Origin: Hyphomonadaceae bacterium
GTDB lineage: Bacteria > Pseudomonadota > Alphaproteobacteria > Caulobacterales > Hyphomonadaceae
Direction of reading: 5' to 3'
Length of the DNA stretch: 64,000 bases
Assembly (NCBI GenBank): GCA_024742355.1
Contig: JANSYM010000010.1
Coordinates: 118,958 to 182,957, forward strand
Part shown: positions 10,916 through 20,893 of the stretch, piece by piece
How the letters are laid out: each line of letters opens with the position of its first letter
Numbering within the stretch: the stretch's first letter is position 1
Made by a program: the position numbers and the translations under genes
The notes under the pieces: model-generated
The model's database searches: none
Told to the model about the DNA's origin: nothing
What the model saw: only the letters and a program-made list of their open reading frames with translations

Positions 10916-13087
10916 TCATTGCACCTGGATATGGGGATCACCTTGGGTGATGTCACCAATCTTCCATATCGGTTCATTTACGGAGTCGAACGCCGCCAAC
11001 ACGTCGTCGACTGAAGTCGCAGGCAGCGTGGCCAGCAGCCCGCCGCAGGTTTGCGGGTCGAACAGCAGATCACTTCGTGCGGATTGCGTGAGTGTCATGT
11101 TTGCGGCGCGGGCCGCATTTGACGGCCACAAGGTCGAACGGATGCCCGCCTCTGCGAGCTGTAGCGCGCCATCCAGCAGCGGCACCTGTGCCAGATCCAG
11201 CCGCGCTGAGACGCCGGAGGCTTCGAGAATATTCAAGAGGTGCCCGGCGAGACCAAACCCGGTAATATCGGTGAGGGCGGTTGCGTGCTCGCGCAACAAT
11301 TGCGAAGCGCGCGCCTGCAAGCGAGACATGCTGGCAATGGCAGCGCAATAATCATCGCCGTCGGCCAGCTGGCGCATCTCTCCGGCCAGCACGACCCCGG
11401 TTCCAATCGGCTTTGTCAGCACGAGGACATCCCCGGGCGCCGCACCGGCATGGGTGATGGGCGCGCGATCCAGCTCGCCAGCGATCGAGAAGCCGACTGT
11501 CAGCTCGGCGCCAGAGCTGGTATGGCCACCCGCGATACCCGTGCCACAAGCGTCGAAGACCTCGCCAGCGCCGGCCGTGATTTCCCGGATCATGTGGCTT
11601 TGTTTTTCAGGTGAGAGCGGCGGCAATATGATCTGGGAGAGGACCGTGCGCGGTGTTGCACCCATGGCCCAGATGTCGCCCAGCGCGTGGATGGCGGCGA
11701 TCCTAGAGAGCAGATAGGCATCGGAATTGAAGGCGCGCAAATGATCGGTGCTGAACACCTGGAACGCGTCGCCATTCGTGACAATTGCCGCATCGTCGAG
11801 CGGGGTGTCGGGTGCGACCTCCAGCCCATCTATCAGCGCCGCTTGCGAGACCTTGGCCCCGCACGCGCCGCATTGCTGCGTGTGATCCTCGTAGAGCTCA
11901 TCGAGCCCTTTTGCGCGGTCCTGCGGGAGGTCGGCGACGCGCATCTGCGTCGCGTGCCGGAATTGCTCCATGAATGCCTGGTCGATGCGGTCCTTGAGGC
12001 GCCAGATCGGTTTGCCGGCGAAACCGATGCCCCACTTATCGGTCACCGCGGAGTTTCGGCCGGTCGAGATCAGTTTCAGGTAGGATCTCTGCGGTGAAAA
12101 ACGACGAAGCGGTCGATCGGACAAGTGAGCGCGCAAATTCTCGAACAGGACCGGCGCTTGCCGAACTGCAAATACGCCGGCCTTGGGCCGCGGCGTGTGC
12201 ACCATATGGGCGCAGTCGCCGGTGGCAAAAACGTTCGGTGTATTGGTTGAGCGGAGGGTCTTGTCGACCGCGACGTACCCGTTTTCGAGGTCGAGCGATG
12301 TGTCCGCGAGCCAGGCATGCGGCGCCGCACCAGCAGCGCTGACGATGAAATTTGCGGGAATGAGGTCTTGCTCCGATCCGAGTTGTACGCCGTCGCCGGA
12401 GAGGGCGGTAACCTTGGCGTTAGTGATGATCTCAATTCCGGCCTGGTCGAGTTCGGCCATCAATTTTCGCCGCGCGGCGGCGCTGGATTCCCGCAGGATT
12501 GAGGTCTCAGCTTCGATGAGTCGAACCTCACTTAGCAGACTCATTTCACCAAGCCGGTGCGACATTGCCAGGGCAAGCTCGACGCCCGCAACGCCGCCGC
12601 CCAGGATCGCGACTTTTGGCGCTTGTCCGGTCTCGCGCGCATCGTCGATCAGCGTCGTCCAGGCGTCCGCAAACGGGCCAAGCGGTTTCGCCGGAATCAG
12701 ATGTTCCGCTGCGCCTGGCAAGTCGGTCAGCGCTGAGGTGATGCCAATGTCGATGGACAGCGTGTCATAGCCAATGTCAGGGCGCGCCTGCAATTGAATG
12801 CGCTTGCCCTCCGTGTCGATACCGATGGCGCAATCGATGATCAGGCGCGCTCCGGCTTGTCGGGCAAGGCGGATCAGGTCGATATCGAGATCGCATCGCT
12901 GATAATGTCCCGCGACGAAACCGGGCAGCATACCGGTATAAGGCGCCTTGGCTTGCGGGTTGACCAGTGTCACCCGCGCGCCGCGCAAGGGCGCCATCGC
13001 CCATTTCTTCAGGACCAGCGCATGTGCATGTCCGCCGCCCAGCAAGACCAGGTCACGTGTGATCGGAAGCGGGCGGGGCGTGTGCAA
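10916..13087 (-). CDS. selD: Fused FAD-dependent oxidoreductase-selenophosphate synthase
   Basis: A 723-residue two-domain protein. Residues 1 to about 345 form an NADH dehydrogenase-like FAD/NAD(P) oxidoreductase, with a dinucleotide fold at LVLLGGGHAHA, a second at VAILGGGVAGVE and the C-terminal FAD motif FATGDCAH. Residues from about 400 form SelD, which makes selenophosphate from selenide and ATP; the catalytic cysteine region is QQCGACGAK with C406 and C409, and the glycine-rich GTGIAGGHTSSG and TDITGFGLAGH motifs follow. Cysteine rather than selenocysteine is at the active position. The start codon is TTG (13087), with GGAG nine bases ahead. The fused domain may deliver reduced selenium. 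It lies downstream of the selenoprotein gene, past a terminator hairpin. Confidence 0.94.
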   Translation of the reverse strand: MHTPRPLPITRDLVLLGGGHAHALVLKKWAMAPLRGARVTLVNPQAKAPYTGMLPGFVAGHYQRCDLDIDLIRLARQAGARLIIDCAIGIDTEGKRIQLQARPDIGYDTLSIDIGITSALTDLPGAAEHLIPAKPLGPFADAWTTLIDDARETGQAPKVAILGGGVAGVELALAMSHRLGEMSLLSEVRLIEAETSILRESSAAARRKLMAELDQAGIEIITNAKVTALSGDGVQLGSEQDLIPANFIVSAAGAAPHAWLADTSLDLENGYVAVDKTLRSTNTPNVFATGDCAHMVHTPRPKAGVFAVRQAPVLFENLRAHLSDRPLRRFSPQRSYLKLISTGRNSAVTDKWGIGFAGKPIWRLKDRIDQAFMEQFRHATQMRVADLPQDRAKGLDELYEDHTQQCGACGAKVSQAALIDGLEVAPDTPLDDAAIVTNGDAFQVFSTDHLRAFNSDAYLLSRIAAIHALGDIWAMGATPRTVLSQIILPPLSPEKQSHMIREITAGAGEVFDACGTGIAGGHTSSGAELTVGFSIAGELDRAPITHAGAAPGDVLVLTKPIGTGVVLAGEMRQLADGDDYCAAIASMSRLQARASQLLREHATALTDITGFGLAGHLLNILEASGVSARLDLAQVPLLDGALQLAEAGIRSTLWPSNAARAANMTLTQSARSDLLFDPQTCGGLLATLPATSVDDVLAAFDSVNEPIWKIGDITQGDPHIQVQ

Positions 13088-13191: not shown

Positions 13192-13710
13192 TCATTCGGT
13201 GAGTGCCTGCACCACCTGATCGTAGACAGCTGCCGCCTTGGCGCGCATCTCGTCATCGGTCGCATCCTGGATCGGATGGTCGACGAGGACAAAGCGCGCA
13301 TCGCTCATGCCGAGCGCGTCACGCTGGGTCACGGCGGCATTGTGAAATTCGCTCGAAGCGATGGTGACGGCTGGGAGGCCCTGGATTTCAAACCAGACTG
13401 TGTCGTGCATACTGCACGTCGTACAAGACCCTCAGTCCGCCAACCCTTCAACGACGAAGTCACACTCAGCCTTCATCTGCGCCCGCAAATCATCGGGGCA
13501 GGGCTTGGTGAACGTTGGCTTGGCATAGCGCCGGACTTCGATGTCCGGCATTCGTTCCCCGAGCAGGCGCTCAAGCTCATCGAGCAAGACGTCTCCTCTC
13601 GGTTTTCGAATGTCCATCAAGCCAACCACGCCTGAAACCTGGCCAGAGCGCGGCGTAATTTGCCGGCTGACCGGAACAGCTTCGTCAGTTGGATCAAGAA
13701 TGACCGTCAT
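13192..13710 (-). CDS. UGSC family selenoprotein (in-frame TGA read as selenocysteine)
   Basis: Read through the TGA at 13434-13432, this is one 172-residue protein; read literally it would be two short ORFs of 92 and 72 residues. The TGA is codon 93, and the next codons give G-S-C, so the local sequence is LADUGSCTTCSMHD: the U-G-S-C motif of the UGSC family, with Sec and Cys96 placed like a UxxC redox pair and a further Cys99. The frame is unchanged across the TGA and the second half begins with no ribosome-binding site. A strong AAGGAGGA precedes the ATG at 13710. It starts 14 bases after the thioredoxin-like gene, and selA, selB and tRNA-Sec lie just upstream. The reaction is unknown; a thiol/selenol redox function is inferred. 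Confidence 0.93.
13399..13431 (-). promoter_or_regulatory. Candidate bacterial SECIS element
   Basis: Directly after the TGA, CGTGC (13418-13414) pairs with GCACG (13408-13404) around the loop AGTAT, with outer TGT (13425-13423) and ACA (13401-13399) able to pair. The apical loop carries a G-U and begins 18 bases after the UGA, inside the 16-37 base window known for SelB recognition. Confidence 0.7.
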
Positions 13711-13724
13711 TCGTCCTCCTTCTG

Positions 13725-15311
13725 TTACGTTTCTTCTATCTTGCGAGACACGGATTGCGATCCCATCGGGCCGGTGACCCAGCCATGATAAGCGCTCGAA
13801 AATTTCCCCGCATCTGACCCGGCGACCACAATATGGATATGTTCGCGCTTGGCAAATTTCGGCACCAAATTGTCGAGCTGCGCATCGTCCAGCTTGGCGG
13901 CGGCGGCGCGGGTCATGCCGGCGCCGGACACCTCATCGGCAACCATATCGCGCAAGGGGCGTCGTGTGACGTCCTGGATGCGGTCCCGCAGGCGATCCTT
14001 GTCATATTCCCCATCGCGCATCAGCGTGTCGATATGTTCAGGGCAAACGACCAGCAGCGCGTCGACGGGCATCATGTGATATTTGGGCAGGAACATGGAT
14101 TCCAGTCCGAGGCCGAGTGTCCCGGCGATCTCATCGGGCGCGCGGGATTCCTGGTCAACAATGTGAACCGGACCGGACGTCATGGCGAACACGGTCACTA
14201 CCGAGTCTGTGGCTTTGAACCCACGCTCGACATGCAATGGCGCCCAGGGCGAGCGACCTTCGCGCTCGGCAAAGCACATGGTGAATTTCATGGGGCTGCC
14301 CAGGGTCGAGCGATCCGTGCCGCCGGGTTTCGCGCCGCCAATATTGCGAACGGCGAGGCGAACCGCGCGGCCAATCGTGGCATTGGCGCGATTGCCGGTG
14401 CCGAGCGCCATGAGGCCACTATTCATGCCAAGCCGCTCGCGGATTGGACCATTGACGACGATCACAGGCGAGGCACCCATGGTTGTCGCCATGACGCCGT
14501 GGACATTGAATGCATCTGTGCAGATCGCTTCGATAGCGGCGATGACAACCGGCAGGTATTCCGGCTTGCAGCCCGCCATGACGGCATTGATGGCAATCTT
14601 TTCGATGCTTGCTTCACCCATATTTGGCGGCATCTGGGCGATCACCTCCTTGGGCGAACGCGAGGTGCCGCTCAGCATGCGCATCACCCGCTCAGGCGTC
14701 GGCGGGACCAAAGGCAGGCCGTCAGAAAAGCCCTGATCAAACATGAACTCGGCAACGTCATCAGCGCTGGCAATCTCGATCTTGCGCGCGCGGATGGGGC
14801 TGTCTTCGGCGTCGGCCATGAGGCGGTCGAGAATCTCCGGGTCGAGGTGTTTGGACCCACAGCCCGGGCGCCAGTCCGGCAGCGTGTCCCAGTCAATGGC
14901 GGTAGCCGTGCAGTTCAACGTGGACGCCATGTCGCGATCGACGCCTTGCCATTCGGTTTTCACAAAGCCTTCGCATTGCGTGTCTGGCGTTCGGCCGTCT
15001 GGGCACCAATAGAGTGCCGGCACAATATCAAAGCCGTACGCGAATGAGATCTTCAGGTCCGAGTCATCGAGTATCGGCAGCGTGAGGCCATGCCGGTCTT
15101 TCAGAACCAGGCTGCCGTCACGTGTCTGACTGATCATCCAGATATTCGCGGCCTCGCCATATGTTTTTGCGAAGGCCTCAAGCACGGGCGCAGCGAGATT
15201 GCAGGTCTCACAGTCTTCCTTGACGAAACAGATCAAGCTTGGCTTCGCCGCCGGAAAAGCCCGGGGCGCGTCGTCCAGATCGCGCAGTTCGAAACCAGGT
15301 AACTCAGCCAT
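13725..15311 (-). CDS. Thioredoxin-like protein fused to a UGSC-associated domain
   Basis: A 528-residue cytoplasmic protein. Residues 1 to about 115 look like a thioredoxin/TlpA fold with a CETC redox motif at C34-C37 (VKEDCETCNLAAPVLEAF) and a cis-proline-type segment (DIVPALYW). The remaining roughly 400 residues are a conserved region I do not recognise (DQGFSDGLPLVPPTPERV, NVHGVMATTMGASPVIVVNGP, GNRANATIGRAVRLAVRN, HIHIVVAGSDAGKF). The start at 15311 is chosen because AGGAG then stands six bases away; the ATG at 15317 touches the AGGAG. It lies between tRNA-Sec and the selenoprotein gene, 14 bases before the latter, so the two proteins probably work together, the dithiol perhaps reducing the U-C pair. 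Confidence 0.85.
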   Translation of the reverse strand: MAELPGFELRDLDDAPRAFPAAKPSLICFVKEDCETCNLAAPVLEAFAKTYGEAANIWMISQTRDGSLVLKDRHGLTLPILDDSDLKISFAYGFDIVPALYWCPDGRTPDTQCEGFVKTEWQGVDRDMASTLNCTATAIDWDTLPDWRPGCGSKHLDPEILDRLMADAEDSPIRARKIEIASADDVAEFMFDQGFSDGLPLVPPTPERVMRMLSGTSRSPKEVIAQMPPNMGEASIEKIAINAVMAGCKPEYLPVVIAAIEAICTDAFNVHGVMATTMGASPVIVVNGPIRERLGMNSGLMALGTGNRANATIGRAVRLAVRNIGGAKPGGTDRSTLGSPMKFTMCFAEREGRSPWAPLHVERGFKATDSVVTVFAMTSGPVHIVDQESRAPDEIAGTLGLGLESMFLPKYHMMPVDALLVVCPEHIDTLMRDGEYDKDRLRDRIQDVTRRPLRDMVADEVSGAGMTRAAAAKLDDAQLDNLVPKFAKREHIHIVVAGSDAGKFSSAYHGWVTGPMGSQSVSRKIEET

Positions 15312-15380: not shown

Positions 15381-15476
15381 TGGCGGAGGCGGATGGGAAT
15401 CGAACCCACCACACGCCGGTTACGACGCGTCGCTGGTTTTGAAGACCAGGGAAGCCACCAGACTCCAGTCGCCTCC
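15381..15476 (-). tRNA. selC: tRNA-Sec (UCA)
   Basis: A 96-base tRNA including an encoded CCA. The anticodon stem CTGGT/ACCAG holds the loop CTTCAAA with anticodon TCA (15442-15440). It has the long variable arm and the long acceptor arm (GGAGGCG with CGCCTCC plus an eighth A-C position) of selenocysteine tRNAs, a G discriminator, and a T loop GGTTCGATTCC. It lies between selB and the thioredoxin-like gene on the same strand, so it may be cut out of the operon transcript. Confidence 0.95.
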
Positions 15477-15531: not shown

Positions 15532-17415
15532 TCAGGTGATGATGGCGCGCGTATCACCGTCGCGCTGAGTGACCCCGCTTTGGTCCAGATATTCAAGCAA
15601 AGGAACGATTGTCTTGCGATTGGTCTGCAATGTTGCGCGGGCTTCGCCAGTCGTGAACGTCTTGCCATCCGGGAAGGCGCCACGAAGGCGCTCGCGGGCA
15701 GCATTGATACTGGCTGAATGTAGAAGAATGTGTTGCTTCAGTGCGTGATTGAACAGGCGAACCGCGACCCCGTTCGCGATCAGCAATTCCACTATGTCAT
15801 CCCGTTGGAGTGAATTCGCGTCGGGGTCTAAAACAAGTGCCGGGCGCAGGCCGATGTCTGTAAGCCGTTGCGCCGCTTCGTCATAGGCGGCGCGTTGCGC
15901 GTCTGACATTGCAGCGATGGGGTCGTGATCGGGCAGCGCCACATCGGTCTCGCGCATCACGAGACGCCCGGTTTCCGCCAGGCTGCGCTCAACATGATCC
16001 AGCAATGAGGACGGCACGCGTCGAAGCGACCCGCGAATGGCTGAGATGGGATGATGGGGGCGGACAGGGCGAGCTTTGTGCAGATTTTCGAGCGCTGTGA
16101 GATAATCACGGGCGGTGTGTTCAATATCTGATTTTCGCAATGCCAGAGATTGGTCGACGATCTGAAAATCCGTCTTGAGCCTGGTCTGCAGGTCGGCGTT
16201 CGGAGCGCCTATCAGTCGAGCGACATCGTCGAGTTGAACCTCGCCGCGCCCGCGATCGGCGAGCGCGTGGGCCACCTTCTCAGGGTCGCTTTCATTTGCC
16301 GCTTCGAGAACGGACAGGTGTAGCGGCTTGTCGCGCCGGATCAGCTGCGCGACGGGATCGATGATCGTTGCCCCGCACAGCGTTTCAGCCGTCGCTGGAT
16401 TGCGCACGATGAGCCGTTGGCCTCGATACCCGACCTGTGGGTCCATGAAGACCAATTGGGCAAAGTGGGTATCGGCATGCCGAGACGGCTCGGAATAAAG
16501 CCGCACGCGCGCCGGGATGTGCGCGGTGCCGCTCATCACCATGACCTGCTGCATGTGTCGGAGCGGTAAGCGCGAGCCTGCAAGCGTGCGCAGGGCGACG
16601 TCAAACCGGGCGGATGGTGCAAACTTGTCTGGCGCGCAAATGACATCGCCTTTGTGAACCGACCCGCGATCCACGCCCCGTAGATTCAGTGCCACGCGGC
16701 TCCCCGCCTCGGCCACGACAACGGGCGCGCCGGCGACCTGTATCTCGCGCACCGTCGCGTCGATGCCTGAGGGGGCGATGATTGCTGGACTGTCCGTTTC
16801 TATCGATGCGCCGATCAAGGTTCCAGTGACGATTGTTCCCGCGCCCGCTGATGTGAAGACGCGATCAACCGGCAAGTAGAAACCGGGCAAGGCCGGGCGC
16901 GGGGTGGGGCTTTCGAAAACCGAATTCAGCGCCGACGCTAAGGCGTCTATTCCAGTGCTGTTCTGGGCTGAACAGAGGACGATCTGAGGCTCTGCGAACC
17001 CAATCTCTGACAGAAATGTTGCAATCTCATCGCGATGCAAATCGATTGTAGCCTCATCTGCCAGATCAGATTTGGTCAGGGCGACGATGACGGTGTCCAG
17101 GCCCATCGAGCGGGCGAGCTTCACATGCTCACGGGTTTGCGCCCCGATCCCTTCGACCGCGGAGACGGCCAACAGGACCGCCTCAACGCCGCTCAGCCCG
17201 GCGGCTGTTGTGCGCACAAAGTCAGCGTGGCCTGGCGTATCGATCAGATGCAGCATGCCGGATGGCGTCTCGAAATGCGCAAATCCGAGGGCGATTGTCA
17301 GCCCGCGCGCGCGTTCTTCGGCCAGCGTATCCGTGTCGGTGCCGGTCAGAGCTTTGACCAGCGCTGTTTTGCCGTGATCCACATGGCCGATGACGGCGAT
17401 GGTCTTGTCGGTCAT
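15532..17415 (-). CDS. selB: Selenocysteine-specific elongation factor SelB
   Basis: A 627-residue GTPase that brings Sec-tRNA to the ribosome at UGA codons preceding a SECIS hairpin. The N-terminus is EF-Tu-like, with the P-loop GHVDHGKT at 10-17, DTPGHADFV (G3) and TKSD (G4). Domains 2 and 3 follow (VDRVFTSAGAGTIVTGTL). The C-terminal 270 residues are the winged-helix region that binds the SECIS RNA. Length matches the family. The ATG overlaps the selA stop by four bases (ATGA), so the two are translationally coupled. The tRNA-Sec gene lies 55 bases beyond its stop. Confidence 0.96.
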   Translation of the reverse strand: MTDKTIAVIGHVDHGKTALVKALTGTDTDTLAEERARGLTIALGFAHFETPSGMLHLIDTPGHADFVRTTAAGLSGVEAVLLAVSAVEGIGAQTREHVKLARSMGLDTVIVALTKSDLADEATIDLHRDEIATFLSEIGFAEPQIVLCSAQNSTGIDALASALNSVFESPTPRPALPGFYLPVDRVFTSAGAGTIVTGTLIGASIETDSPAIIAPSGIDATVREIQVAGAPVVVAEAGSRVALNLRGVDRGSVHKGDVICAPDKFAPSARFDVALRTLAGSRLPLRHMQQVMVMSGTAHIPARVRLYSEPSRHADTHFAQLVFMDPQVGYRGQRLIVRNPATAETLCGATIIDPVAQLIRRDKPLHLSVLEAANESDPEKVAHALADRGRGEVQLDDVARLIGAPNADLQTRLKTDFQIVDQSLALRKSDIEHTARDYLTALENLHKARPVRPHHPISAIRGSLRRVPSSLLDHVERSLAETGRLVMRETDVALPDHDPIAAMSDAQRAAYDEAAQRLTDIGLRPALVLDPDANSLQRDDIVELLIANGVAVRLFNHALKQHILLHSASINAARERLRGAFPDGKTFTTGEARATLQTNRKTIVPLLEYLDQSGVTQRDGDTRAIIT

Positions 17416-18803
17416 TTGGGAGAGATCGCTCGCGCCGCCGCAATAATCATCGCGACTTCCTCCGCCGCCACAGCGCGCATATCCAGCAGGAACTGGTCCT
17501 GGGTGATGCGCCCGATAATTGGTGTTTCCGCTTTGCGAAATTGCTCAGCAAGCGCATCGACGGATGTATCTTCACGCGACAGCGCAATGGCGGCGCTGGG
17601 CAAATCCTGCTGCGGCAAAGACCCGGCGCCAGCGCGGGCCGTACTGGCTATTTGGACGGCGCGAAGTGAGGTCTCTTTCTGGATAGCCGTGCAGAGCTGA
17701 TTTGCACGATCCCGAATATGCTCGATTGGCTCTGCCAGCATTTGTAGGACTGGAATGCGCGCGATCGGTTCGTGCGGCGATTTGTAGAGCGCCAAGGTCG
17801 CGCGCAAGGCGGCGAGGGAGAGTTTGTCGATGCGCACCGCGCGCGCCATCGGGTGTTTCTTGATGCGGTCGATCAGAGCGCGGCGACCGGCAATAATCCC
17901 GGCTTGCGGACCGCCCAGCAGCTTGTCGCCAGAAAAGGTCACCAAGTCGACGCCTGCGGCGAGGACGTCGCGCACCACCGGGTCTTCGCGCAGTCCGTAT
18001 TTGGAAAGATCAATCAGCACGCCGCTACCGAGATCTTCCAGAAGGAATGTCCCGGTCTCGTGCGCGAGTTGCGCCAGTTCTTGCCGGTCCGGCGCCGAGG
18101 TGAATCCGACAATGGCATAATTGCTGGTATGGCTTTTGAGCAGCAGCGCTGTGTCGTCGCCAATCGCTTCGGCATAGTCGCGCAGATGCGTCTTGTTGGT
18201 TGTGCCGACTTCTTTCAGGACAGCGCCGCTCTGCGTGATCACGTCGGGCATGCGGAATGAGCCGCCAATCTCGACCAGTTCACCGCGTGAGGCGATGACC
18301 TGCTGTCCGCTGGCGAGTGCGCTGAGACAGGTCAGGATGGCCGCCGCGCAATTGTTCACTACCATCGCCGCTTCGGCGCCGGTCAGCTGGCAGATCAGAT
18401 CTTCGACATGCGCGTGCCGGGTGCCGCGTTTGCCATTGTCGAGCGCCAGTTCGAGTGACGAATAATGTGCGGCCACAGACTGCATCGCCTCAATCGCTTC
18501 CGGAGCGAGGCGGGCGCGGCCGAGATTTGTGTGAATGATGACGCCAGTAGCATTGATGGCGCGTTTCAGCGTCGGGGCCTTTGCCGCGTTCAGGTCGGTC
18601 GCGATTTCGTCGAACAGGCTCTGTTCTGAAATCACGCTGATCGATGCGCCGCCCGCCGCCATGATCTTGGCGCGGGCAATGTCGAGTTTCGCGCGAATGG
18701 CATTGGCGACATCTTCGCGTCCGTGTCTTGCGATAAGCCCGGCAGCGGCATCGCCCTCCAGCAATGTCTGAACTTTCGGCAGGCGTCTCAACTGATCTTG
18801 CAT
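17412..18803 (-). CDS. selA: L-seryl-tRNA(Sec) selenium transferase SelA
   Basis: A 463-residue PLP enzyme that converts seryl-tRNA(Sec) to selenocysteyl-tRNA using selenophosphate. The PLP lysine is K294 in TFSGDKLLGGPQAG. Other family blocks are INATGVIIHTNLGRA near 83-97 and the SELVEIGGSFRMP-type segment, here RGELVEIGGSFRMPD. Length is normal. It is the first gene of the selenium operon; the promoter must lie in the 167-base spacer shared with the divergent ketosynthase gene. Confidence 0.96.
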   Translation of the reverse strand: MQDQLRRLPKVQTLLEGDAAAGLIARHGREDVANAIRAKLDIARAKIMAAGGASISVISEQSLFDEIATDLNAAKAPTLKRAINATGVIIHTNLGRARLAPEAIEAMQSVAAHYSSLELALDNGKRGTRHAHVEDLICQLTGAEAAMVVNNCAAAILTCLSALASGQQVIASRGELVEIGGSFRMPDVITQSGAVLKEVGTTNKTHLRDYAEAIGDDTALLLKSHTSNYAIVGFTSAPDRQELAQLAHETGTFLLEDLGSGVLIDLSKYGLREDPVVRDVLAAGVDLVTFSGDKLLGGPQAGIIAGRRALIDRIKKHPMARAVRIDKLSLAALRATLALYKSPHEPIARIPVLQMLAEPIEHIRDRANQLCTAIQKETSLRAVQIASTARAGAGSLPQQDLPSAAIALSREDTSVDALAEQFRKAETPIIGRITQDQFLLDMRAVAAEEVAMIIAAARAISPK

Positions 18804-18970: not shown

Positions 18971-20893
18971 ATGCGCTTACCAGTCATTGTCAGCATGGGC
19001 GGCGTGAATGCTGCCGGTCGCACCTCCGGGCACCAGGCCTATCGCCGCATGGTTCTGGACTCTCTGTCGGACGATCTTGCCACCGAGACGATTACGAGCC
19101 TGGCGGTGATGATGGGGCTGGTGAGCTCGAACGAGGCGGGTGACTATTTGGTCGCCGGCGATGAGTCGAGTGATGCCCTCACCGCAGCGCAAGTGGCCGG
19201 GCGTTTCAAGGATGCTGTTCTGGATGGCACACTGGTGCGACGAATCGAGCCGGAACGGTTTGATGTCGATGCGCTGTACTGGCAATCAAGCGCCGCCCTG
19301 TCCCCGCTTTCGGACGGGGGGGAGGACACCATCCGCGTCCTCGCTGACAAATCTGCCATCCCGGCTCCCGTGCCCGAGACGTGGACGGTCGAGCCGCATG
19401 ATGAGGACCGTGTCCAGGTCACCATTCAGGGCGACCTCAACGTTTTCCTGTCCAATGTCAGGGAATTTCCGGTCAAGGCGGCGGGGCAATTGCCGCGTGG
19501 TTTTGAAATGGCTAGCCTGTACAATTCCCGGTTTCAGCCACGGGGGCTGCAAATGGCCTTGTTCGGCGCGACGGATGCGTTGCGGTCGCTGGGCATCGAC
19601 TGGGACGACGTGCTGGCCTGTATCGAGCCGGACGAGGTCGGCGTCTATTCCAGCAGCGGCTTCGGGCAGATGGACAAGGAAGGCTATGGCGGCATGCACC
19701 AGGCCCGCATGATGGGCCAACGTGTGACCGCGAAATCCCTGGTCATGGGCATCAATTCCATGCCCACCGATTTCATCAATGCCTATGTCCTGTCCAATGT
19801 CGGGATTGCCAGCAGCGCTGTCGCCGCCTGCGCGACCTTCTTGTCCAATCTGCGCCATGCCGTCGCCGATATTCAGTCCGGCAAGGTGCGCATCGCCATG
19901 GTCGGCAATAGTGAAGCGCCGGTTGTGCCGGAAATCATGGACGGATTTGGGACGATGGGGGCACTCGCGACCGATGACAACATGACCAAGATCTATGGCG
20001 ATGGTGAGATCGACTATCGCCGCGCCAGCCGCCCGTTTGGCAATAATTGCGGCTTCACGATCGGCGAAGCGAGCCAGTATTTCATTCTCATGGACGACGC
20101 CCTGGCGCTGGAACTCGGCGCGCCTTGCCTCGGATCAATCACCGATGTGTTTGTCGATGCGGATGGCACCAAGAAATCCATCACCGCGCCGGGGCCTGGC
20201 AATCATATCTCTATGGCCAAGGCGGTGGCGGCAGCCGCTGCTGTGGCGGGGCGTGAGGCCGTCCAGGCGCGCAGTTTCATCCTCGCGCACGGCTCAAGCA
20301 CACCGCAAAACCGGGTGACTGAGTCTCAGATATTCGATCAGGTCGCTGGCGCCTTCGGCATACAGGACTGGCCGTTGATCGCGGTGAAAGCCTATCTCGG
20401 CCATACCATCGCGCCGGCTAGCGGCGACCAGCTGGCGACGGCGCTGGGCTGTTTCGAGCACGGCATCTTGCCCGGCATACCGACATTGGATGGTGTCGCG
20501 GATGATGTGCACCATGAACGCCTGGCACTTGGCCCGGCCCACCAGGTGCGTGATCCGAGCGAACTGGACGTCGCCATCCTCAACTCCAAGGGCTTTGGCG
20601 GCAATAATGCATCAGCCGTGATCCTGTCGCCGGGCAAGACCGAAGCCATGTTGGAAAAGCGCCATGGCAAGGAGGCCTTTGCCGCCTATGCAGCCCGTCG
20701 CGAAAATGCCCTCGCGCAGTCAAAGGCCTATCTGGAGCGCGCCGATCGCGGTGACTATGCTCCGATCTATCGCTTCGGCGAGGAAGTGATTTCCGACGCG
20801 GATGTCCTCATGACCGACAAAGCCATCTCCCTGAAAGGAGCTGGCAATCCGATCACTCTGCCGAGTGACAATCCGTACGCTGACATGACCTGA
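18971..20893 (+). CDS. Beta-ketoacyl-ACP synthase, FabY-like
   Basis: A 640-residue condensing enzyme. The thiolase-fold active sites are visible: the nucleophile in SAVAACATFLSNL, the first histidine in AHGSSTPQN, and the second in KAYLGHTIAPASGDQ, followed by the LNSKGFGGNNAS glycine-rich C-terminus. FabB and FabF are about 410 residues; the extra length, spread over an N-terminal extension and insertions, matches the FabY class of Pseudomonas aeruginosa, which starts fatty acid synthesis. FabY is therefore the best guess rather than a polyketide synthase module. It is divergent from selA and convergent with the RND genes. Confidence 0.82.
   Translation: MRLPVIVSMGGVNAAGRTSGHQAYRRMVLDSLSDDLATETITSLAVMMGLVSSNEAGDYLVAGDESSDALTAAQVAGRFKDAVLDGTLVRRIEPERFDVDALYWQSSAALSPLSDGGEDTIRVLADKSAIPAPVPETWTVEPHDEDRVQVTIQGDLNVFLSNVREFPVKAAGQLPRGFEMASLYNSRFQPRGLQMALFGATDALRSLGIDWDDVLACIEPDEVGVYSSSGFGQMDKEGYGGMHQARMMGQRVTAKSLVMGINSMPTDFINAYVLSNVGIASSAVAACATFLSNLRHAVADIQSGKVRIAMVGNSEAPVVPEIMDGFGTMGALATDDNMTKIYGDGEIDYRRASRPFGNNCGFTIGEASQYFILMDDALALELGAPCLGSITDVFVDADGTKKSITAPGPGNHISMAKAVAAAAAVAGREAVQARSFILAHGSSTPQNRVTESQIFDQVAGAFGIQDWPLIAVKAYLGHTIAPASGDQLATALGCFEHGILPGIPTLDGVADDVHHERLALGPAHQVRDPSELDVAILNSKGFGGNNASAVILSPGKTEAMLEKRHGKEAFAAYAARRENALAQSKAYLERADRGDYAPIYRFGEEVISDADVLMTDKAISLKGAGNPITLPSDNPYADMT

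Follow-up and report, generated by a model that had tools for sequence, protein, structure and literature searches.

A predicted UGSC-family selenoprotein and its thioredoxin-fused partner in a selenocysteine gene cluster of a Hyphomonadaceae bacterium

The UGSC gene and its surroundings

We analyzed a 64,000-nucleotide stretch of DNA (the window) from a contig of a Hyphomonadaceae bacterium, the minus strand of which carries a gene for a predicted selenoprotein of the UGSC family amid genes for the synthesis and insertion of selenocysteine (Sec). The gene occupies positions 13192–13710 of the minus strand. Its frame runs from the ATG at 13710–13708 to a final TGA stop at 13194–13192 and encodes 172 residues; the one in-frame TGA lies at 13434–13432. 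This TGA is codon 93 and the predicted Sec codon, as judged from the frame and from the conserved TGA of relatives, and the translated context of the site is ...EGLAD-U-GSC-TTC-SMHD.... The initial annotation had placed the TGA at the U of a U-G-S-C motif within an otherwise open 172-residue frame, and its coordinates are confirmed here. Under the ordinary code, the frame is split into a 92-residue open reading frame (ORF) and an internal 72-residue ORF that begins with ATG. A strong Shine-Dalgarno sequence is present only before the first half, as had been claimed: AGGAGG (13720–13715, minus strand) lies four bases 5' of the ATG, whereas none was seen within the 20 bases upstream of the internal ATG at 13410. 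Folding and comparison place a hairpin resembling the apical part of a selenocysteine insertion sequence (SECIS), with a 5-bp stem and a 5-nt loop containing GU, at 13404–13418 of the same strand.

The frame matches the NCBIfam model NF041046 with 171.5 bits (cut-off 125), covering positions 4–147 of the 147 in the model, and Pfam PF24696 with 168.8 bits (cut-off 25). These matches make the gene a sound addition to an already known and curated family. The protein itself is no different from other NF041046/PF24696 members, sharing the full-length match, the U-G-S-C motif, and the occurrence of the family in Sec and cysteine (Cys) forms. UGSC has been in print since at least 2008 (excerpt of PMC2398784), and it ranks among the abundant selenoprotein families of marine samples, accounting for 8.2% of the selenoprotein genes according to an excerpt of PMC9402790. 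The available excerpts of the open-access literature naming UGSC list it without a function, and they mention neither a kinship with GrdB nor a thioredoxin-fused partner. What is added here to the known family, and was absent from the initial annotation, is the recurrent partner, the co-occurrence with Sec genes, and the GrdB-like profile.

Along the minus strand, the gene order is selA (17412–18803), selB (15532–17415), the selC gene for tRNA-Sec with a UCA anticodon (15381–15476), the partner gene (P0002, 13725–15317), UGSC, and a gene for an Ndh-SelD fusion (10916–13087), which is a single open frame without an internal TGA. The window therefore holds the complete Sec machinery (selA, selB, tRNA-Sec, and SelD), and the neighboring selA, selB, selC, and selD of the earlier account were all located on the same strand as UGSC. 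The partner is a protein of 530 residues, with an N-terminal thioredoxin-like domain (14826–15257, minus strand; motif C36-E-T-C39) and a second domain (13767–14789, minus strand), for which we coin the name DGLP.

Decoding of the TGA and co-occurrence with the Sec machinery

UGSC is present in 17 of 101 close genomes. All 16 full-length matches contain exactly one internal TGA, while the gene of the seventeenth genome (G011) is split across two contigs. In the class, 28 of the 289 genomes compared encode UGSC, with up to eight copies per genome, and one TGA is found in 70 of their 71 matches (the gene studied here is included in both TGA counts). The single TGA-free match, at locus L087, has Cys at this position. 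A separate scan of named records, using a pattern that itself required Cys, yielded 27 Cys-form loci, with Cys at the Sec codon in all 27. These records include Methylobacterium, Bradyrhizobium, Cyclobacteriaceae, Saprospiraceae, and Nonomuraea, which we take to represent Bacteroidota, Pseudomonadota, and Actinomycetota. The alignment with Cys homologues at codon 93 that the initial annotation had proposed thus finds Cys in 27 of 27 loci, with reading continuing through the position. With 28 class genomes and 27 loci in named records, the family is also more widespread than the annotation allowed in describing it as mainly a matter of marine metagenomes.

An alignment of the U/C-G-S-C region retained 89 rows, 62 with Sec and 27 with Cys. 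Two of the Sec rows read U-G-A-C, and the Cys protein of L087 was dropped after failing the motif pattern. In an alignment of 47 UGSC sequences, where the numbering is one lower, C96 and C99 are invariant, and position 93 is Cys or Sec in every row except P0003, which has Gly. Gly, Trp, or Arg replaces Sec/Cys in P0003, P0004, and P0005, which were seen as proteins without their DNA; a different code used in gene calling may account for some of these. The ratio of nonsynonymous to synonymous substitution (dN/dS), estimated from 10 genes of the genus (45 pairs), is 0.058 before the TGA and 0.081 after it, both values being rough with synonymous differences near saturation. This pattern clearly points to purifying selection on both sides of the TGA, with the downstream part kept as protein.

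The stem of the hairpin consists of pairs 17–31 to 21–27, counted from the T of the TGA. In the single gene it is no better than in shuffled sequences, with z-scores of +1.15 (48 nt), +0.46 (35 nt), and −1.42 (24 nt). Across relatives, all five stem pairs are formed in 42 of the 45 distinct main-group Sec genes, compared to a mean of 10.3 and a maximum of 22 expected from 2000 synonymous codon resamplings of these genes. All 55 main-group Sec genes have GU at loop bases 23–24, compared to none of the 27 Cys genes. The closing C-G pair is changed to G-C in three genes, along with an amino-acid change. For 46 of the 55 main-group rows, none of 500 shuffles reached the covariation score and the paired cells of the hairpin. 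A second Sec subgroup (UG[SA]CTPAV) has an alternative stem with the 5' side shifted by one base, which is complete in 7 of 7 genes, again with a GU loop. The members of this divergent subgroup (L080, L088, L104, L105, L106, L107, and L108) read CUGSCTPAV, except for GUGACTPAV in L108. They adjoin or are fused to DGLP, and a further DGLP domain is found at five of the seven loci.

Several points weigh against the hairpin. The count of double-change pairs was equalled by 117 of 500 shuffles of the same 46 rows. The Cys genes also pair fully in 8 of 26 cases (resampled mean 2.7, maximum 9), and their 103 paired cells exceed those of all 2000 resampled sets (maximum 99). In addition, the codon weights of the resampling were derived from the Sec genes, and relatedness among the genes was left in. 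We find the comparative support for the predicted hairpin convincing; it is clear only across relatives and absent from the single gene. Accordingly, the part of the earlier SECIS-like assignment that stands is the conservation of the structure across Sec genes with its GU loop, while the fold of the single gene is not significant.

The TGA at codon 93 is thus predicted to be read as Sec. If it were a true stop, the product would have 92 residues, and what follows would be either a relic or a gene of its own with 72 residues; ORFs of 92 and 72 residues, the latter with its own ATG, do exist. We regard this as very improbable, as the TGA is conserved while the part downstream of it has a dN/dS of 0.081, the Cys genes read on through the Sec position, the Sec machinery is adjacent, and the hairpin is kept across Sec genes. 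The same observations, together with the scores above both family cut-offs, support the earlier reading of the gene as a UGSC selenoprotein.

Of the 101 genomes, the 17 with UGSC and no others have matches to the SelB profile in frames of SelB size (at least 626 residues, 215–305 bits), those of G011 and G034 lying under the SelB cut-off. The next rows, at about 202 bits with frames near 400 residues, are EF-Tu by size, this separation by frame size being our own criterion. Matches to tRNA-Sec of 67–79 bits were found in 16 of the 17 UGSC genomes (not in G026) and in no other of the 101; the division at 67 bits is also our own, with the next best match at 53 bits and 61 genomes passing the Rfam threshold. 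The 17 genomes span six genera and are related, and hence do not represent 17 independent events.

Sec cassettes whose sole selenoprotein is formate dehydrogenase are described in an excerpt of PMC5029168. The present cluster is similar to them in the closeness of the sel genes to the selenoprotein gene, but it has UGSC as its selenoprotein, and none of the 17 UGSC genomes has a formate dehydrogenase alpha subunit that scores over the cut-off. Long matches to this subunit in G028 and G015 reach 287 and 254 bits, respectively, against a cut-off of 666, and none of the alpha-subunit matches listed for the UGSC genomes has an internal stop. Internal stops are also absent among the AhpC/TSA matches listed, which cover 14 of the 17 UGSC genomes. 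For Rdx the count was 0 of 14, and PF07355 has no match in the genome studied here, the one of the 17 covered by that search. No second selenoprotein was found in the families tested, in a search made by family and not as a complete scan. The co-occurrence of UGSC, SelB, and tRNA-Sec makes UGSC a likely reason for the retention of the Sec machinery in these 17 genomes despite the lack of any formate dehydrogenase alpha subunit over the cut-off.

No empty site documenting gain or loss of the cassette could be shown: at E 1e-100, all 18 UGSC-free congeners lack one of the two flanking genes, and 16 of the 18 lack the other. The Sec cluster is flanked by a 640-residue ketoacyl-synthase-like gene at window positions 18971–20893, which is found at E 1e-100 in 9 of 29 genomes of the genus, all of them UGSC bearers. 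Because this gene accompanies UGSC in 9 of the 11 UGSC-bearing congeners, beside the cluster in five, the presence of UGSC within the genus may follow one clade.

Predicted fold, partner protein, and likely kinship with GrdB and PrdB

In an AlphaFold model of UGSC with Cys in place of Sec (mean pLDDT 94.4), five strands alternate with five helices, and the Sec position is predicted to lie immediately ahead of the helix that comes after strand three. The strand order of thioredoxin is β-α-β-α-β-β-α, from which that of the model differs, which argues against a thioredoxin fold for UGSC. The best Foldseek matches are flavodoxin-like or Rossmann-like, including the SsuE reductase (E 2.7e-5, TM 0.48); this fold is too common to be used as a functional hint, and we rejected it as such. 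Thioredoxin is absent among the best 50 Foldseek and the best 50 VIA matches, which by itself does not exclude that fold. No sequence relatives of UGSC were found in the PDB, the best E-values being 0.83 for UGSC alone and 0.22 with an alignment. The 2008 Global Ocean Sampling survey, in the excerpt available, called UGSC likely thioredoxin-like (PMC2398784).

The DGLP partner flanks UGSC in 85 of 88 loci. The N-terminus of the partner has a thioredoxin fold with a CxxC motif, and the 50 best fold matches of the protein all fall on this domain, with none on DGLP among the matches listed. A scan of 38 members of DGLP gave no family at E <0.01 besides thioredoxin-like ones. Over the DGLP part, relatives of P0002 labelled Henriciella and Hyphomonas sp. 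Mor2 are 92% and 90% identical, respectively, from which we take the genus studied here to be the one that includes these two. A thioredoxin domain is present in 54 of 89 partner domains and a C-terminal dithiol in 15 of 89, and none has both. An excerpt of PMC2398784 describes UGSC fused to a conserved domain, 'Unknown_1', found in few aquatic organisms. Unknown_1 may be equivalent to DGLP, the two being likened by description only; in contrast to its reported rarity, DGLP was matched by 7,935 of 8,000 scored candidates in the protein collection.

GrdB and PrdB are the Sec subunits of glycine, sarcosine, betaine, and D-proline reductases (PF07355). We compared UGSC with 24 of 27 alphaproteobacterial PF07355 matches, three having failed the motif pattern; the set consists of these alphaproteobacterial GrdB-like proteins and not of the classical clostridial GrdB and PrdB, and all 24 match PF07355. 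Alignment of the UGSC and GrdB-like profiles with hhalign gave a score of 39.5 (E 2.7e-5) over 80 columns, with Sec aligned to Sec, whereas 100 column shuffles reached 19.9 at most. When the UGSC profile was compared with 40 neighbor families, three were UGSC itself and the best other was the DGLP cluster (28.7), while the top match of the GrdB-like profile in the same set was a UGSC cluster (36.8). UGSC also resembles GrdB in having UxxCxxC at the Sec site, a motif reported for GrdB in an excerpt of PMC13188914.

Other results count against this kinship. The hhalign probability is 74.5, not near 100, and falls to 60.2 (score 36.5) with the profiles swapped. No Pfam match connects UGSC with PF07355, and a scan with P0001 to E 10 gives UGSC only. 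The site of the alphaproteobacterial GrdB-like proteins is UPx[CD]; it lacks the third Cys that UGSC has, and Asp replaces the second Cys in 3 of 24. UGSC further differs from GrdB and PrdB in its size of 172 residues, without the N-terminal part, and in having a thioredoxin-fused partner in place of GrdA/GrdC or PrdA. Overall, we consider a kinship of UGSC with the Sec domain found in GrdB and PrdB to be likely, if unproven.

Among the PF07355 matches (L109–L135), the 24 aligned comprise 19 with TGA and five with Cys at the first position of the site. When the GrdB-like alignment was compared with the PDB, a single row came up, at E 3.5e-4; it was a designed protein for which no stretch passed, and we put it down to chance.

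Proposed reaction and alternatives

We narrowly favor the interpretation that UGSC is the Sec-bearing subunit of a two-subunit, thiol-driven reductase, the other subunit being the thioredoxin-like/DGLP partner encoded upstream. SelB, directed by the hairpin at 13418–13404, would insert Sec at U93. The active site would be U93-G-S-C96-x-x-C99, located just before the helix after the third strand of a predicted parallel (βα)5 fold and probably akin to the Sec site in GrdB and PrdB. The Sec selenolate could then attack a small organic substrate gripped by UGSC on one side and the DGLP domain on the other, and reductive cleavage of a C-N or similar bond would leave an oxidized Se-S bridge. Thioredoxin reductase would supply the electrons with which the partner reduces this bridge again through its CxxC thioredoxin-like domain, and the C-terminal dithiol may stand in for this domain in some relatives. 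These steps are proposed by analogy with GrdB and PrdB.

In keeping with such a relay, thioredoxin reductase lies beside six of the Cys loci (at least 48% identity, query locus included), and both thioredoxin reductase neighbors scanned pass the TrxB cut-off. Of the 27 named Cys loci, 13 have a GntR-type regulator nearby, five a C4-dicarboxylate transporter, and five a beta-keto acid cleavage enzyme (query loci included in each count). These neighbors suggest small organic acids or amines as substrates, and the presence of up to eight UGSC copies per genome suggests that there are several. Carnitine catabolism was considered for the Bacteroidota neighbors and dropped, as the scores against the NCBIfam carnitine dehydrogenase models fell far short of their cut-offs (79.6 versus 592 and 61.8 versus 414).

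Some observations fit poorly with the proposed reductase. Neither a thioredoxin domain nor a C-terminal dithiol is found in 20 of the 89 partner domains, and two UGSC genes (L076 and L094) lack a DGLP match despite available sequence on the expected side. Moreover, no common pathway was found near the Sec loci, where no Pfam family occurs in more than three members among 123 neighbor ORFs. These were taken from 261 naively called ORFs that have at least 160 residues and lie no more than 5.5 kb from Sec loci not belonging to the family of the window, with those on the same strand chosen first and those above 900 residues left out.

Two other functions were weighed against the reductase. In line with the 2008 survey, UGSC could have a thioredoxin fold and act as a general redox protein of the thiol-disulfide or peroxide type, with the partner as its reductant or client, as its UxxC motif and the thioredoxin-like domain of the partner might indicate. 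This appears unlikely to us, since the confident model alternates strands and helices in an order unlike that of thioredoxin, the top Foldseek matches are flavodoxin-like, and a plain reductant would not be expected to have the unrelated domain, about 340 residues long, that the partner carries at 85 of 88 loci. Alternatively, UGSC and its partner could detoxify or repair a reactive compound, such as an electrophile or a metal adduct, instead of serving catabolism or amino-acid reduction. Sec proteins of aerobes are often protective, and up to eight copies per genome would fit several different compounds, but the transporter, the beta-keto acid cleavage enzyme, and the GntR regulator counted above near Cys loci look catabolic, and we give this alternative a similarly low probability.

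If the two-subunit reductase is correct, the partner, its relay domain, and the likely kinship with GrdB and PrdB turn a family of 'unknown function' into a testable enzyme. A wider proposal, which we put forward tentatively and with less confidence than the reductase itself, is that UGSC and its thioredoxin-fused DGLP partner constitute an unrecognized family of two-subunit, Sec/Cys-dependent C-N (or C-X) reductases in several phyla. These might be oxygen-tolerant cousins of glycine and proline reductase, with many substrate-specific paralogues per genome, and in the present group of bacteria could be the reason that the Sec code is kept.

The DGLP-less UGSC gene of L076 adjoins a large ORF (L076:9911-13576) that was judged by eye to be hydantoinase/oxoprolinase-like. 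PF01968 matches occur in 2 of the 123 neighbor ORFs, a set to which this large ORF does not belong. The Cys-form pairs of five loci (L142, L148, L149, L152, and L154) have a neighborhood in common that includes thioredoxin reductase, a DctA-like transporter, and a GntR regulator.
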